A stretch of DNA of 64,000 nucleotides from Nitrosomonas eutropha (GTDB taxonomy: Bacteria > Pseudomonadota > Gammaproteobacteria > Burkholderiales > Nitrosomonadaceae), in the NCBI RefSeq assembly GCF_900116685.1, contig NZ_FPBL01000006.1:62001-126000 (forward strand), in the 5' to 3' direction. The first letter of the stretch is position 1; every line of letters starts with the position of its first letter. Under the pieces are notes generated by a model. That model was given only the letters and a program-made list of their open reading frames with translations, made no database searches and was not told where the DNA came from. Of this stretch, positions 2,606-10,331 are shown in pieces. A program made the position numbers and the translations under genes.

Positions 2606-5830
<3,225 letters not shown>

Positions 5831-5880
5831 GGTTATTTCCAACTGATCTATTGTTGAGACAAGTTGCTATTTTTTGAAAC

Positions 5881-5901
5881 ATTCGAGTGTCGAATTTTTT
5901 T
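5881..5901 (+). terminator. Factor-independent terminator after czcCBA
   Basis: A perfect 6-bp stem (ATTCGA / TCGAAT) with a GTG loop runs directly into seven T residues, 51 nt after the czcA stop. No gene on the opposite strand ends here, so it most likely ends the czc transcript. Confidence 0.65.
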
Positions 5902-6053
5902 ACATTCCAGTGAGCCAGGAATTTTTTAGATGGGTAAGTAAAGCTATCTTTTTGTTTTCCCTGATATAAAAAATACTATTTGGATATGGCATGAGATATG
6001 CTTGTTAATAGAATTAAGGACATATTAAGAACCTATTTTTTGCTGGCTATTGT

Positions 6054-6059
6054 TATACT
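6054..6059 (+). promoter_or_regulatory. Candidate -10 element for the HPr-rel-A cassette
   Basis: TATACT lies 44 nt upstream of the first cassette gene in an AT-rich stretch after the czc terminator. I find no convincing -35 box at 16-18 nt. GAGGTG at 6091-6096, 7 nt before ATG 6104, is a good ribosome binding site. Confidence 0.35.
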
Positions 6060-6103
6060 GGCAACTGATCTTTCCTGAAATTTTGCATGAGAGGTGACTG
6101 AAC

Positions 6104-6541
6104 ATGTCGGAAAAAAATATACCGGAACAATTGAAACAGGATGCAGTTGGTGAACAGACGACGGCTGTTTCTCCTCCTCAACCGACCCGCAGACGGTTAC
6201 TCAAAAGTACCGTTACCATTCCAGTCATCATGACCTTACATAGTGGGGCGGCACTGGCACGGACGAGTAATCTGGTAGGCGCGGTTACAGATCTGGATTC
6301 GGCGGCCAAGAAGATGAATGATCTGGAACAAGCACGAATCGTGTGCGTCAATCCCGGAGATGGTCTTATTGAAGAAAGTAGCTCCACTTATGATTTAGGC
6401 ATGAATCCGACAGCAGTCTTGGGTGAAGCATCGCAAGATTTGGAAACACAGGCACAGAATTGTCAAGCAGGCGGCGGCATTTTGATTTCAGCGACTGCAT
6501 TTACTTCCCTTCAAGGCAGAGGATTTTTCACCGATCTATAA
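6104..6541 (+). CDS. Tat-leader small protein, candidate substrate of the HPr-rel-A cassette
   Basis: A 145-aa protein with no enzyme domain that I recognise. Residues 28-34 (TRRRLLK) match the twin-arginine consensus with Leu in place of Phe. A weakly hydrophobic segment follows (35-49) and an AxA cleavage site (ALA at 50-52), so the mature protein would be about 93 residues (53-145). That part holds two cysteines (81 and 120), a short acidic helix, and a Gly-rich hydrophobic end. The roughly 27-residue region before the twin arginines is long and hydrophilic and could act as a recognition leader for the PqqD-like protein encoded 24 nt downstream. It is first in a tight four-gene cluster with a kinase-like and a nucleotidyltransferase gene. 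A role as their modified, exported substrate is inference. Confidence 0.8.
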   Translation: MSEKNIPEQLKQDAVGEQTTAVSPPQPTRRRLLKSTVTIPVIMTLHSGAALARTSNLVGAVTDLDSAAKKMNDLEQARIVCVNPGDGLIEESSSTYDLGMNPTAVLGEASQDLETQAQNCQAGGGILISATAFTSLQGRGFFTDL

Positions 6542-6565
6542 TAATTGGCGGTGATGGTAGACTGA

Positions 6566-6853
6566 ATGAATAGCTGGTATTCATCTCGTTTTTCACTACT
6601 GCGTATAGAAAGTTGGGAGAGTGAATTTACCGTGTTCCAACCGGAATCCGAGAAAACCCATTTTCTGAATGAAATGGGGTTGCAGATTCTTGTAATGCTT
6701 GATCAATCCCCTACCTCGCTTGAGGTACTTTGCCGGAAACTGTCGGAATATTTTACATTACAGCCTGATGCGCAATTTCTCAGGCAAGTTGCCCAGATCT
6801 TACAGCGTTATGAGGCGCTGGGGCTAATCGAAAGAGTAAAAGAAAGCGAGTGA
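6566..6853 (+). CDS. PqqD-like peptide-binding protein, HPr-rel-A system
   Basis: A 95-aa protein with the winged-helix, PqqD-like layout: an N-terminal beta part containing HFLNEMGLQILVMLDQ, then two helices with ALGLIERV at the end. PqqD-type proteins (RiPP recognition elements) bind the leader of a precursor peptide and present it to a modifying enzyme. The stop overlaps the GTG start of the kinase-like gene by 4 nt (GTGA), which points to coupled synthesis. Known HMM families place this type of PqqD homologue beside HprK-related kinase A. The binding partner here is not known; the upstream Tat-leader protein is the obvious candidate. Confidence 0.8.
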   Translation: MNSWYSSRFSLLRIESWESEFTVFQPESEKTHFLNEMGLQILVMLDQSPTSLEVLCRKLSEYFTLQPDAQFLRQVAQILQRYEALGLIERVKESE

Positions 6854-7758
6854 AAGTCGGGCAGCTGTCGCTGGATGAATTTCATGCATTGCTTATTGGA
6901 CAAGGTCTGCGGGTAAAGATGGGCCCGTTCAATCTGTCTGTTCAAACCCGGTTACCATTACTTATTCGTCAGCTTCACCAGATGTATTCTCACTATTCGC
7001 TGGCGGAAGAGGACGAGATTGTTGAATTTCATGTCCGAGTCATTCCCAAACATTCGATCAGACAGCCATTGGCGCGATTGATCCGATTCGAAGTTGATGG
7101 CCGCTCCCCATTTCCGCCTGTGCCCGTGGAGCAGGCGCTGGCGACCCTGGAATGGGGGGTGAATCTTGTCATTGCCATGCGCATCAATCATTTGTTGCTG
7201 TTTCATTCCGCCACAGTGGAACGTAATGGCCATGTGCTGCTGCTGCCAGCCTGGCCGGGCAGCGGCAAGACAACCTTGAGCGCTATGCTCATGCACCGTG
7301 GTTATCGTCTGTTTTCTGATGAATTCGGATTGATGGCTCCTGAAACCGGTGATTTTTTCCCACTTCCCCGGCTGATGCCACTCAAAAATCAATCTATTGA
7401 AATTATTCGTCATTATCTGCCGGAAGCTGTGCTGGGGCCGGAAATACCTGGCACGCTGAAGGGCACGGTTGCGCATATACGCCCACCGCAAGCAAGTATT
7501 GAGCGGGCAGATGAGGCTGCCCAACCCCGCTGGATTGTTTTCCCAAAATGGGTAGCTGGTGCTGCCTTGCGGCTGGAGTCTTTGCCACAATCCGAGGCGT
7601 TTCTGTTGCTTGCAACAAATGCATTTAACTACGAAGTGCTGGGAGAAGCTGCATTTGATGCGGTGACGCGCCTGGTTCGGGGTTGCGAGTGTCGCAAACT
7701 GGTGTATTCCGATTTTGACAGTGCATTGGTTGCACTGGATGAACTGACCGATGGCTGA
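6850..7758 (+). CDS. HprK-related kinase A
   Basis: A 302-aa homologue of the HPr kinase/phosphorylase C-terminal domain. It shows a P-loop AWPGSGKTT at residues 134-142, a preceding LLFHSATVERNG with a conserved-looking His (119), and LFSDEFG at 154-160 where HPr kinases carry acidic Mg2+ ligands. No PTS genes are in view, and there is no HPr kinase N-terminal domain, so HPr itself is an unlikely target. Relatives beside lasso-peptide genes phosphorylate a serine of the precursor peptide, a useful precedent, though no lasso cyclase or protease is encoded here. The GTG start lies in the PqqD stop overlap, and its own stop overlaps the next gene by 8 nt. Confidence 0.82.
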   Translation: MKVGQLSLDEFHALLIGQGLRVKMGPFNLSVQTRLPLLIRQLHQMYSHYSLAEEDEIVEFHVRVIPKHSIRQPLARLIRFEVDGRSPFPPVPVEQALATLEWGVNLVIAMRINHLLLFHSATVERNGHVLLLPAWPGSGKTTLSAMLMHRGYRLFSDEFGLMAPETGDFFPLPRLMPLKNQSIEIIRHYLPEAVLGPEIPGTLKGTVAHIRPPQASIERADEAAQPRWIVFPKWVAGAALRLESLPQSEAFLLLATNAFNYEVLGEAAFDAVTRLVRGCECRKLVYSDFDSALVALDELTDG

Positions 7759-8878
7759 GTTTAAGGTTGATGTCAGGCTAGATCATCACCAGTTACTGCT
7801 GGAAGCAATTATCCGGCCTGCTACCCTGGTTAATTACAGTCATTTGCAATGGGAGTTGCTGTTGCGCGTGGCAAGACGCGCAAGGTTACTTGGTTACCTT
7901 GCTGCCCGGCTGGAAAAAAATGGATCACTGGATAAAATTCCGCAGCGGGCTGCCAACTTGTTGCGCTCCAGTTTGATTCAGGCTAAAAAACAGCAGCAAT
8001 CGGTAAATTGGGAGTTGAATCGAGTGCTGTGGGCGCTGGATGGCCGAGAGATCCGGATCATTGTACTTAAAGGCATGGCGTATCAGCTGCAAGATTTTCC
8101 GAACGCGGCCGGGCGCATCTTTGCTGATCTGGATTTATTGGTATCGAAGGAGGCTCTCGGTCAGATTGAATCCATGCTGTCGAAAAAAGGCTGGCAGCGC
8201 CACGTGCTCACCGATTATGACGAACGCTATTACCGTGAGTGGAGCCATGAAATTCCTGCGTTGGTGCATCCTGAGCGCGGGGTTGAGGTAGATGTGCATC
8301 ACACGCTTTCCTCGCCGCTGGGCAATCTGAAAATTGATCCACTGCCGTTTCGGGAAGCGGCAATCAAAGTGAAGGATAAAGGTGTTTATGTTCTGAGCCC
8401 GGAAGACATGCTGCTACATTGCGCAGTCAATCTGTTTCAGAACAACGAATTGGCTGATGATCTGCGCCATTTGCTGGATTTTCATGAAATTCTGCAATTT
8501 TTCAGCCAGCAACAGTTGTCTTTCCGGGAGAAGCTGATCGACCGTGCCAACCGGCTTGGACTGGGTAGGCCACTTTTTTACAGCCTCTATTTCAGTCGTT
8601 TATTACTGCACTCATCGGCTCCGGAGCAGCTGGAAAAACAGTTAAATCATCAACCTGGCTGGCTGACATTGCGCATCATGCATGATTGTGTGCCGCTGGC
8701 GCTGCTGCCGCAACATCCTGATCAACCATCAAAATGGGTAGAACTCGCACGTTTGTTGCTCTACTTGCGCAGCCACTGGCTGCGCATGCCGTTGTATCGC
8801 CTGTTGCCACATCTGGCCTACAAGTTTTATCTGTCAGTATTTCCGGGCAAGAGCGCTCGTGCTAAGCAGAACGGGTGA
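7751..8878 (+). CDS. Nucleotidyltransferase-fold protein (PF14907-like), HPr-rel-A system
   Basis: A 375-aa protein of the uncharacterised nucleotidyltransferase family that accompanies PqqD-like and HprK-like genes. The core shows VLKGMAYQL (residues 105-113) followed by GRIFADLDLLV (121-131), where D126 and D128 form the metal-binding DxD of the polymerase-beta fold. EVDVHHTL, further on, supplies a third acidic position. The C-terminal half is helical and rich in Leu. It probably transfers a nucleotide or a similar group to a protein or small molecule; the acceptor is unknown. It is the last gene of the cassette and converges on mgtE with only 10 nt between the two stops. Confidence 0.8.
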   Translation: MAEFKVDVRLDHHQLLLEAIIRPATLVNYSHLQWELLLRVARRARLLGYLAARLEKNGSLDKIPQRAANLLRSSLIQAKKQQQSVNWELNRVLWALDGREIRIIVLKGMAYQLQDFPNAAGRIFADLDLLVSKEALGQIESMLSKKGWQRHVLTDYDERYYREWSHEIPALVHPERGVEVDVHHTLSSPLGNLKIDPLPFREAAIKVKDKGVYVLSPEDMLLHCAVNLFQNNELADDLRHLLDFHEILQFFSQQQLSFREKLIDRANRLGLGRPLFYSLYFSRLLLHSSAPEQLEKQLNHQPGWLTLRIMHDCVPLALLPQHPDQPSKWVELARLLLYLRSHWLRMPLYRLLPHLAYKFYLSVFPGKSARAKQNG

Positions 8879-8888
8879 TTCTGGAAAA

Positions 8889-10331
8889 TTACAGCAAAAA
8901 AAGTGTTGCCAGCCCCAGAAAAATGAAAAATCCTCCACTATCGGTGACGGCAGTAATCATGACGCTGGAACCAAGCGCCGGATCGCGTCCGAACTTCCGG
9001 CGTGTTAACGGGATGAGTACCCCGACAAATGCAGCGAGAAGAAGGTTTAGCAGCATGGCAAGCGACATTACCAGGCCAAGCTGTATATTCTGATAGATGG
9101 CATAGGTAAATAACCCCACGAGCCCTCCCCAGACAATGCCATTGACGATACTGACGCTGATTTCCTTGGTAATCAGTTTGAGGGTGCTGTCCTGGCTGAC
9201 TTGCCCCAGCGCGAGGGCGCGCACAATCATGGTAATGGTCTGGTTGCCGGAGTTACCGCCAACACCGGCAACGATAGGCATGAGCGCAGCGAGTGCTACC
9301 AGCTTCTCGATTGAGTTTTCAAAAAGTCCGATCACGCGCGAAGCAATAAATGCCGTCACCAGATTAATCGCCAGCCAGGCCCAACGGTTGCGGACACTCT
9401 TCCAGACGGGTGCGAATAAATCTTCCTCTTCACTTAATCCAGCCTGATTGCGCGTTTCAAGATCAGCTTTTTCGCGCATGAAATCAATGACCGCATTGAC
9501 AGTTACCCTGCCCAACAGTTTTCCTTCCGGAGAAACAACTGCTGCTGTTACCAGATCGTAACGTTCAAATGCATGTGTAGCCTGCTCAGCCTTGTCGTCC
9601 GGTAGAAATTTGACTGTTTTGCGTGTCATGACTTCCGTTACCGTAGTGTCCGGATCGCTAACCAGCAATCGGTTCAACAACAGAGTCCCTTGCAGGTGTT
9701 CATTGCGATCCACTACAAACAGCTGATCGGTGTGATCCGGTAATTCACCCAACCGGCGCAAGTAGCGCAGAACAACTTCGATGCGCACATCTCCGCGCAC
9801 GGTAATAACATCAAAATCCATCAGCGCGCCCACTGCATCTTCGGAGTAGGACATGGCTGCGCGTAGTTGTTCACGCTCTTCCATGGGTAGTGCCCGGAAA
9901 ACATCATCCATGACATCGCTGGGCAAATCTGGCGCCAGATCGGCAATTTCGTTTGCATCCAGCTGTTCTGCCGCAGCAACCAGCTCCTCGCTGTCCATAT
10001 CCTCAATCAGCGTCTGGCGAACAGCATCAGAGACTTCAAGCAGCACTTCACCATCATGCTCAGCCTTGACCAATCCCCAGATAATCAGGCGATCTTCAAG
10101 TGGAAGCATCTCCAGAATACGGGCGATATCTGCCGGGTGCAGCTTATCCAGTGCCTCCCGCAGATTGGCGAGATTCTGTTTTTGTATGATCGATTCAATC
10201 AACTCCGGCTCTGGAGTATCCTGCAGCCGAACAAAACCTTCTACCAGTTTGTATTTCTGCAGTAGGTAGATAATTTTCTGCAGTTTGCTTTCCAGGTTTT
10301 CATCCTGATTTTCGTGGTGTTCTTCCGTCAT
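8889..10331 (-). CDS. mgtE: Magnesium transporter MgtE
   Basis: A 480-aa Mg2+ channel/transporter of the inner membrane. The order is standard: a helical MgtE_N domain (about residues 30-140), two CBS domains (about 140-270, including LFVVDRNEHLQGTLLL), a connecting helix, then five membrane segments from about 310 on, with the pore motif GGNSGNQT near 370. The N and CBS domains close the pore when cytoplasmic Mg2+ is high, which is known for the family. It is monocistronic as far as can be seen. A -10 element and a palindrome lie upstream. Confidence 0.95.
   Translation of the reverse strand: MTEEHHENQDENLESKLQKIIYLLQKYKLVEGFVRLQDTPEPELIESIIQKQNLANLREALDKLHPADIARILEMLPLEDRLIIWGLVKAEHDGEVLLEVSDAVRQTLIEDMDSEELVAAAEQLDANEIADLAPDLPSDVMDDVFRALPMEEREQLRAAMSYSEDAVGALMDFDVITVRGDVRIEVVLRYLRRLGELPDHTDQLFVVDRNEHLQGTLLLNRLLVSDPDTTVTEVMTRKTVKFLPDDKAEQATHAFERYDLVTAAVVSPEGKLLGRVTVNAVIDFMREKADLETRNQAGLSEEEDLFAPVWKSVRNRWAWLAINLVTAFIASRVIGLFENSIEKLVALAALMPIVAGVGGNSGNQTITMIVRALALGQVSQDSTLKLITKEISVSIVNGIVWGGLVGLFTYAIYQNIQLGLVMSLAMLLNLLLAAFVGVLIPLTRRKFGRDPALGSSVMITAVTDSGGFFIFLGLATLFLL

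Follow-up and report, generated by a model that had tools for sequence, protein, structure and literature searches.

A conserved four-gene cassette of Nitrosomonas eutropha that may modify and export its first protein

What is done by a small exported protein and the three enzyme-like proteins encoded beside it? This question is raised by four adjacent genes in a stretch of 64,000 nucleotides from Nitrosomonas eutropha (contig NZ_FPBL01000006.1, positions 62,001 to 126,000 of the forward strand; hereafter the window, to whose first letter coordinates refer unless a locus is named). The first gene encodes an exported protein (EXP), followed by genes for a PqqD-like protein, an HprK-related kinase and a nucleotidyltransferase. 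The four-gene arrangement is not chance, because its gene order is kept across many genomes. We give an even chance to the proposal that this cassette works on its own as a system for modifying and exporting a protein, in which the PqqD-like protein, the kinase and the nucleotidyltransferase act on EXP, which is then exported by twin-arginine translocation (Tat). The features of the cassette are as follows.

6104..6541, + strand: EXP, exported protein of 145 aa, candidate substrate; open reading frame (ORF) with no Pfam or NCBIfam family
6188..6274, + strand: Tat-type signal/leader motif, EXP residues 29-57; from residue conservation
6479..6511, + strand: C-terminal motif ILISATAFTSL, EXP residues 126-136; from conservation and pattern tests
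6506..6508, + strand: codon of S135, proposed phospho-acceptor; from serine conservation
6566..6853, + strand: PqqD-like (RRE-type) putative leader-binding protein, 95 aa, TIGR04353; from a hidden Markov model (HMM) match
6850..7758, + strand: HprK-related kinase A, 302 aa, TIGR04352, predicted PEPCK/HprK-type fold; from HMM, alignment and model
7246..7275, + strand: kinase P-loop PAWPGSGKTT; from residue conservation
7204-7206 and 7318-7320, + strand: codons of kinase H119 and D157; from residue conservation
7751..8878, + strand: NTP_transf_5 nucleotidyltransferase, 375 aa, PF14907, predicted polymerase-beta-type fold; from HMM, alignment and model
8126..8134, + strand: nucleotidyltransferase D126-x-D128 motif; from residue conservation
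8291-8293, + strand: nucleotidyltransferase third carboxylate D181; from residue conservation

To follow the cassette across genomes, a contig scan gave 41 loci with a kinase relative (63 stretches matched the pattern), which form an uneven sample, since resemblance to the kinase of the window was the basis of selection. A further 54 genomes with TIGR04352 over its cut-off were added, the counts over cut-off being 16 in 61 relatives and 41 in 369 class members; with the window left out and one shared genome counted once, 95 loci were obtained, 93 of them distinct. Using iterated HMMs and the cassette position only, the PqqD-like protein and EXP were each found in 90 of the 95 loci, and the nucleotidyltransferase in 78. 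When rearranged, divergent and long-ORF copies at the same locus were included, these counts became 94, 93 (including L106, judged by eye) and 93, respectively. The misses were L135 for the PqqD-like protein, L059 and L127 for EXP, whose contigs start shortly upstream, and L056 and L128 for the nucleotidyltransferase, whose contigs end shortly downstream. Tabulating the neighbours of the kinase across genomes, as the original prediction proposed, thus gave four co-conserved genes and did not refute that prediction.

The same linkage was seen from the side of EXP. Within the genus (G000-G036, n = 37), the EXP profile matched 12/12 kinase-positive and 0/25 kinase-negative genomes. In the rest of the relatives sample it matched the kinase-positive G041 and G056 and missed G050 and G055, which carry EXP of the second class described below; the kinase-negative G053 gave a weak match (E 0.0016, a 38-aa frame). 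The cassette is patchy in the genus, where 12 of the 37 genomes have a kinase scoring over cut-off. The closest named kinase locus is that of N. eutropha Nm 57, 92% identical to the window kinase, and the kinase stretch of the same-genus genome G001 is identical to that locus.

EXP itself has no named family. The window protein gave just weak NCBIfam rows (E 0.016-0.046), 51 EXP of all classes were without a Pfam or NCBIfam match at E ≤ 1e-3, and no second EXP copy was found in the genome at E ≤ 0.1. Conservation of EXP is concentrated in two places. An alignment (A3) of 28 EXP of class C, the class of the window protein, was made from 27 of the 39 EXP of the window-type loci L024-L064 and that of the window (the other 12 were excluded for over-long ORF starts or a divergent look). 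Its mean column identity is 22%, and R29, R30, P40, T44, L45, S47, A52, S55, C81 and S135 are invariant. Residue counts were repeated on 89 class C EXP, 127 kinases and 126 nucleotidyltransferases. In the 89 EXP, the signal residues are retained as R29 in 89, R30 in 88, T44 in 83, P40 in 82, L45 in 80, A52 in 76, S55 in 74 and S47 in 67. The mean majority-residue frequency is 0.67 for residues 27-57 and 0.53 in the C-terminal motif, and 0.20-0.30 elsewhere (0.23 for residues 1-26, 0.24 for 58-80 and 0.30 for 81-124).

The C-terminal motif has the consensus [ILV]-[ST]-x-x-[AC]-Φ-x-S-[LFI], in which the serine is S135 in the window. It is serine in 88/89 class C EXP, in the alignment of tails as well as in that of full-length sequences, most of these proteins having been assigned by a pattern that requires the motif serine; the 28 rows of A3 are more independent evidence for S135 because they were picked before the pattern existed. 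Seven names were placed in class C by hand, of which three already matched the tail pattern, and one of the rest, L044, had been assigned by that pattern to the other class; L048 and L120 were omitted from the column tally of class patterns and serine position. The tail pattern occurs in 85/131 EXP; in the window, for instance, it reads ILISATAFTSL, and in L159 YAITSSCWASF. A loose 9-residue form matched 70/131 EXP versus an average of 0.85 over 500 shuffles (maximum 5) and 3/1158 other ORFs, one of which is the relocated EXP of L139, and a strict form matched 55/131 versus a shuffle mean of 0.13 (maximum 2) and 2/1158 other ORFs; both patterns were derived from the same EXP sequences that were tested, and some control ORFs are possibly not genes. 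After the motif serine, 1-16 residues follow (83 rows), 10 in the window. Two EXP are short, that of L120 (7287-7508, 74 aa, ending ACISCNASLI) and that of L176 (2688-2933, 82 aa, ending SCLDSFNGL), and they hold little beyond the signal and the C-terminal serine motif.

The three enzyme-like proteins bear out the identities given in the original prediction, whose coordinates and gaps of 24, −4 and −8 nt also agree with the ORFs. In the proposed profile search all three families scored over cut-off in the window: the PqqD-like protein, whose gene overlaps the kinase gene by 4 nt, reached 64.5 bits with TIGR04353 (PqqD_rel_X; cut-off 35), the kinase 345.9 bits with TIGR04352 (HprK-related kinase A; cut-off 200) and the nucleotidyltransferase 206.4 bits with PF14907 (NTP_transf_5; cut-off 31.2), and the carboxylates of the DxD enzyme are retained. 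Alignments were built from 30 of the 40 kinases (A1) and 30 of the 38 nucleotidyltransferases (A2) of the window-type loci L024-L064, each with the window protein. Kinase residues H119, G139, K140, T142, D157 and E158 are present in 127/127 kinases, G137 in 126/127 and P136 in 118/127. The kinase is modelled with a PEPCK/HprK-type fold, and its profile alignment with the HPr(Ser) kinase 3tqf is weak (E 0.21). For the nucleotidyltransferase, whose model points to a polymerase-beta-type nucleotidyltransferase fold, all 31 rows of A2 carry D126, D128 and D181, and in the wider set (n = 126) they are kept in 124, 125 and 124 proteins, respectively. A sequence search of the PDB at E ≤ 1 found no match for the nucleotidyltransferase or the PqqD-like protein.

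Other identities were tried for these proteins. A true HprK was rejected for the cassette kinase, which gave no TIGR00679 row at E ≤ 1; a separate true HprK is encoded elsewhere in the genome (TIGR00679, 329 bits, cut-off 240). Anti-phage defence was also rejected, PADLOC giving no meaningful match; its single row fell on the PqqD-like protein, with E 0.0054. Fused forms were seen as well: in L172, from a genome with 8% contamination, a single 706-aa ORF matches both kinase and nucleotidyltransferase, and in L210 (2098-3261) and L211 (1562-2803) one ORF each matches HprK and, more weakly, PqqD (E 0.001 and 2.8e-5).

EXP class follows the kinase. The EXP of class N carry a CxxSGxxSGNxS-like sequence after the signal and are without the C-terminal motif; two patterns of the CxxSGxxSGNxS type match 28 each of the 42 members, and a PGYW-like pattern matches 37. 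In a kinase tree with 127 rows (40 of class N and 87 of class C; L044b, L047, L123 and L131, four of the 131 EXP, have no kinase row), the class label needs one change, against a mean of 34.2 for shuffled labels, and 0/500 shuffles were as low. We make no claim for one core motif common to both classes, the candidate S-[AGC]-Φ-x-S being too degenerate. A cassette also occurs in a planctomycete metagenome-assembled genome (Bythopirellula, L060), where the kinase groups with Pseudomonadota kinases; transfer or misbinning may account for it.

A divergent sister branch was found among the class genomes, of which 25/369 matched the EXP profile at E ≤ 1e-5; the kinase scored over cut-off in 20 of these, and the other 5 had just a kinase match below it. 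The pieces examined encode small Tat-signal peptides of 57-87 aa (11 in all, partly in tandem), each with Gly-Ser soon after the signal, and a divergent HprK adjoins them in L202, L203, L204 and L212. Three stretches with these peptides beside the divergent HprK are:

L202, 6778-9178: small Tat-signal peptides
L203, 4576-6388: small Tat-signal peptides
L212, 6349-7625: small Tat-signal peptides

A PqqD-like protein is present in L202 and L204. The nucleotidyltransferase had no match on the pieces of L202, L203, L204 (which stops just beyond the kinase) and L212, and for L202, L203 and L212 this holds over 12.5-15 kb, which makes the kinase appear central to the system. On the pieces of L205, L206 and L213 no kinase was found. 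From its gene content, this branch is likely a kinase-only system.

The steps that we propose are these. The PqqD-like protein would bind the signal/leader region of EXP and hand EXP to the kinase; the HprK-type kinase would phosphorylate the conserved serine of the C-terminal motif (S135 in the window); the NTP_transf_5 enzyme would act on that phosphate and add a sugar or a nucleotide; and the finished EXP would be exported via Tat. TatC is encoded in the genome, and Tat export would permit ATP-dependent modification in the cytoplasm ahead of export. The analysis establishes the co-conservation of the four genes, the retained active-site residues and matching modelled folds of both enzymes, the serine and leader motifs, the co-segregation of kinase clade and EXP class and the presence of TatC. 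We infer which residue each enzyme targets, in what order the steps run, what group is added, that Tat is used, the biological role and every catalytic step. A surface or exopolysaccharide-associated role is a guess. That the genes form a peptide- or protein-modification unit acting on the exported first protein and giving a product unlike that of the lasso systems, as originally predicted, is supported by the co-conservation and the conserved serine, with the chemistry put forward here conditionally. A wider version of the proposal, toward which we are slightly more doubtful than hopeful, is that the cassettes represent an undescribed leader-guided class in which whole Tat-exported proteins, as opposed to small peptides, are serine-phosphorylated on a short transferable motif and the phosphate is capped with a sugar or nucleotide. 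We are as tentative about the motif in such a class, which would be the C-terminal [AC]-Φ-x-S-[LFI] or the CxxSGxxSGNxS sequence after the signal.

Several points weigh against this proposal. The Tat profile gave no row at E ≤ 1 for the window EXP, and of six other EXP just that of L133 had one (E 0.076, below cut-off). The motif serine is near the end of EXP and is not terminal as it is in lasso peptides. Contact between the PqqD-like protein and the leader is argued from conservation. The structure matches listed for the nucleotidyltransferase model (VIA-align) all belong to nucleotidyl-transferring enzymes, (p)ppGpp enzymes or relatives of these, and none to sugar transferases, which favours a nucleotide over a sugar as the added group. 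Class N (42/131 EXP) is everything not assigned to class C, 10 of its 42 members match neither serine pattern, and since the class is without the C-terminal motif its sequences indicate that it must use a different site. The branch dividing the classes on the kinase tree is weak (support 41), and joint inheritance alone could give the co-segregation.

Linkage is also looser in the phylum sample, where the kinase was over cut-off in 61/398 genomes. Five of these (G000, G006, G055, G167 and G407) were already covered; beyond them the analysis took in 45 distinct loci and left out 11. Over these 45 loci, EXP was found in 40 (38 by HMM, L182 and L188 by eye), the PqqD-like protein in 36 and the nucleotidyltransferase in 33; 28 of the loci were first taken with about 1.5 kb per side, and some contigs stop there. 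There are genuine exceptions: in L190 and L191 neither an HMM search of 16.8 kb nor visual inspection of the adjacent sequence turned up EXP, the PqqD-like protein is missing from the long loci L191-L196, and the 16.8 kb of L200 (same genome as L178) gave no nucleotidyltransferase match. In the short pieces L168, L169 and L175, EXP and the PqqD-like protein were not found.

The surroundings of the cassette were tabulated by single linkage, counting neighbour families in ≥ 4 loci outside the genus. The largest non-cassette families occur in 19, 17, 14, 14 and 12 of the 93 loci and, with 1-2 members of each identified, are a Trypsin_2 peptidase, a sigma-54 regulator, a glycosyl transferase, an epimerase and a sugar transferase; next in line come a histidine kinase and a TPR protein. 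Trypsin_2-domain peptidase genes thus lie near the cassette in 19/93 loci (e.g. L097, 5214-5984), and this cluster mixes kinds, because the L062 member has PDZ domains. From families such as the glycosyl and sugar transferases, an exopolysaccharide-type setting is suggested for some cassettes. In the window, both immediate neighbours encode transporters. The left one is of the CusA/CzcA family; the right one, predicted as a convergent gene, is present, is of MgtE type and ends at 8889. The terminator predicted at the left proved weak: a scan of 5830 to 6104 found none, and folding resembled that of shuffled sequences (z −0.96 around 5868-5908, z 0.00 for 5830-5920). An exosortase is encoded elsewhere in the genome.

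Could the same genes work otherwise? CitX/MdcG-type holo-ACP synthases place a cofactor directly on a serine, and the nucleotidyltransferase might likewise put a nucleotide or nucleotide-derived cofactor directly on the EXP serine, the kinase readying the donor or a second site and EXP being a phosphodiester carrier protein. We consider this unlikely, as L202, L203 and L212 have Tat-signal peptides and no nucleotidyltransferase match, so that the kinase looks core, and the kinase-nucleotidyltransferase fusion suggests consecutive steps. The setting of some cassettes near sugar and glycosyl transferases, sigma-54 regulators, histidine kinases and Trypsin_2 peptidases, together with the exosortase, would fit a reversible regulation of EXP or of exopolysaccharide synthesis by the kinase and nucleotidyltransferase, with EXP regulated and not matured. 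However, such neighbours are found in minorities (≤ 19/93 distinct loci), those of the window are transporters of the CusA/CzcA and MgtE types, and it is hard to see what a PqqD-like leader binder would do under such regulation, a reading that we regard as quite unlikely. Finally, horizontal transfer as one block might be all that links the genes, the enzymes leaving EXP untouched and its signal motif being merely a conserved Tat signal. The patchy distribution in the genus (12/37 genomes) is in line with this, but EXP stays with the enzymes despite rearranged gene order (L063 and L139), the C-terminal motif is distant from the signal, and EXP class follows kinase clade. Moreover, a Tat signal does not need conserved P40, T44, L45, S47 and S55, so these residues are conserved more than such a signal requires. 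A mere travelling block therefore seems very unlikely to us. Compared with these alternatives, modification of EXP ahead of Tat export remains the reading that we prefer.

A search of the open literature (subscription journals mostly lying outside it) gave no paper on HprK-related kinase, HPr-rel-A, TIGR04352, TIGR04353 or PF14907, and a paper on RREs (PMC12710340) gave no match for kinase, nucleotidyltransferase or HprK. The enzyme families are already known by name in HMM libraries; the proposed EXP substrate family and its candidate sites have no Pfam or NCBIfam model. A candidate substrate family with predicted modified residues makes the question testable. If the proposal is true, lasso-type phospho-capping chemistry extends to exported proteins in many Pseudomonadota, and a short motif becomes available for installing phospho-capping.

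Compared with known systems, the cassette agrees with HPr-rel-A (TIGR04352/TIGR04353), both models being well over cut-off and NTP_transf_5 standing alongside, and goes beyond these models in EXP, which, as noted, matched no family. Unlike HPr kinase/phosphorylase, its kinase is without a TIGR00679 row. The polymerase-beta-type enzymes MenT1 and ANT(2'')-Ia are 15 and 14% identical to the nucleotidyltransferase, and to our knowledge their substrates are not exported proteins. EXP resembles PEP-CTERM/exosortase substrates in having a short C-terminal motif on exported proteins, with some cassettes near sugar transferases, but its tail is without a hydrophobic segment followed by basic residues; membership was rejected, the 51 EXP giving 0 NCBIfam families at E ≤ 1e-3.

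The comparison with lasso peptides goes further. Membership in a lasso peptide cluster was rejected because the protease family PF13471 is absent, with 0 matches in the whole genome, which confirms the missing protease noted in the original prediction. Unlike the short leader-core precursor of a lasso peptide, EXP has 145 aa with 10 residues beyond S135; it is larger, has a putative Tat-type export signal, does not end in the serine and shows no sign of a lariat. According to the reviews PMC8498205 and PMC9266682, in pseudomycoidin a kinase and then a nucleotidyltransferase act on the C-terminal serine, PsmK phosphorylating it and PsmN adding one or two hexoses, although one of the two allows that PsmN is possibly a true nucleotidyltransferase and that a host enzyme adds the sugar. 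The same texts describe lasso clusters with the kinase alone and others with kinase and nucleotidyltransferase, which the sister branch resembles. The predicted analogy to lasso kinases is strengthened by the serine near the C-terminus of class C EXP. Like the pseudomycoidin/paeninodin-type lasso systems, as far as these sources describe them, the cassette combines an RRE-type leader binder, an HPr-kinase homologue, a nucleotidyltransferase homologue and a substrate whose serine is last or nearly last in the chain.

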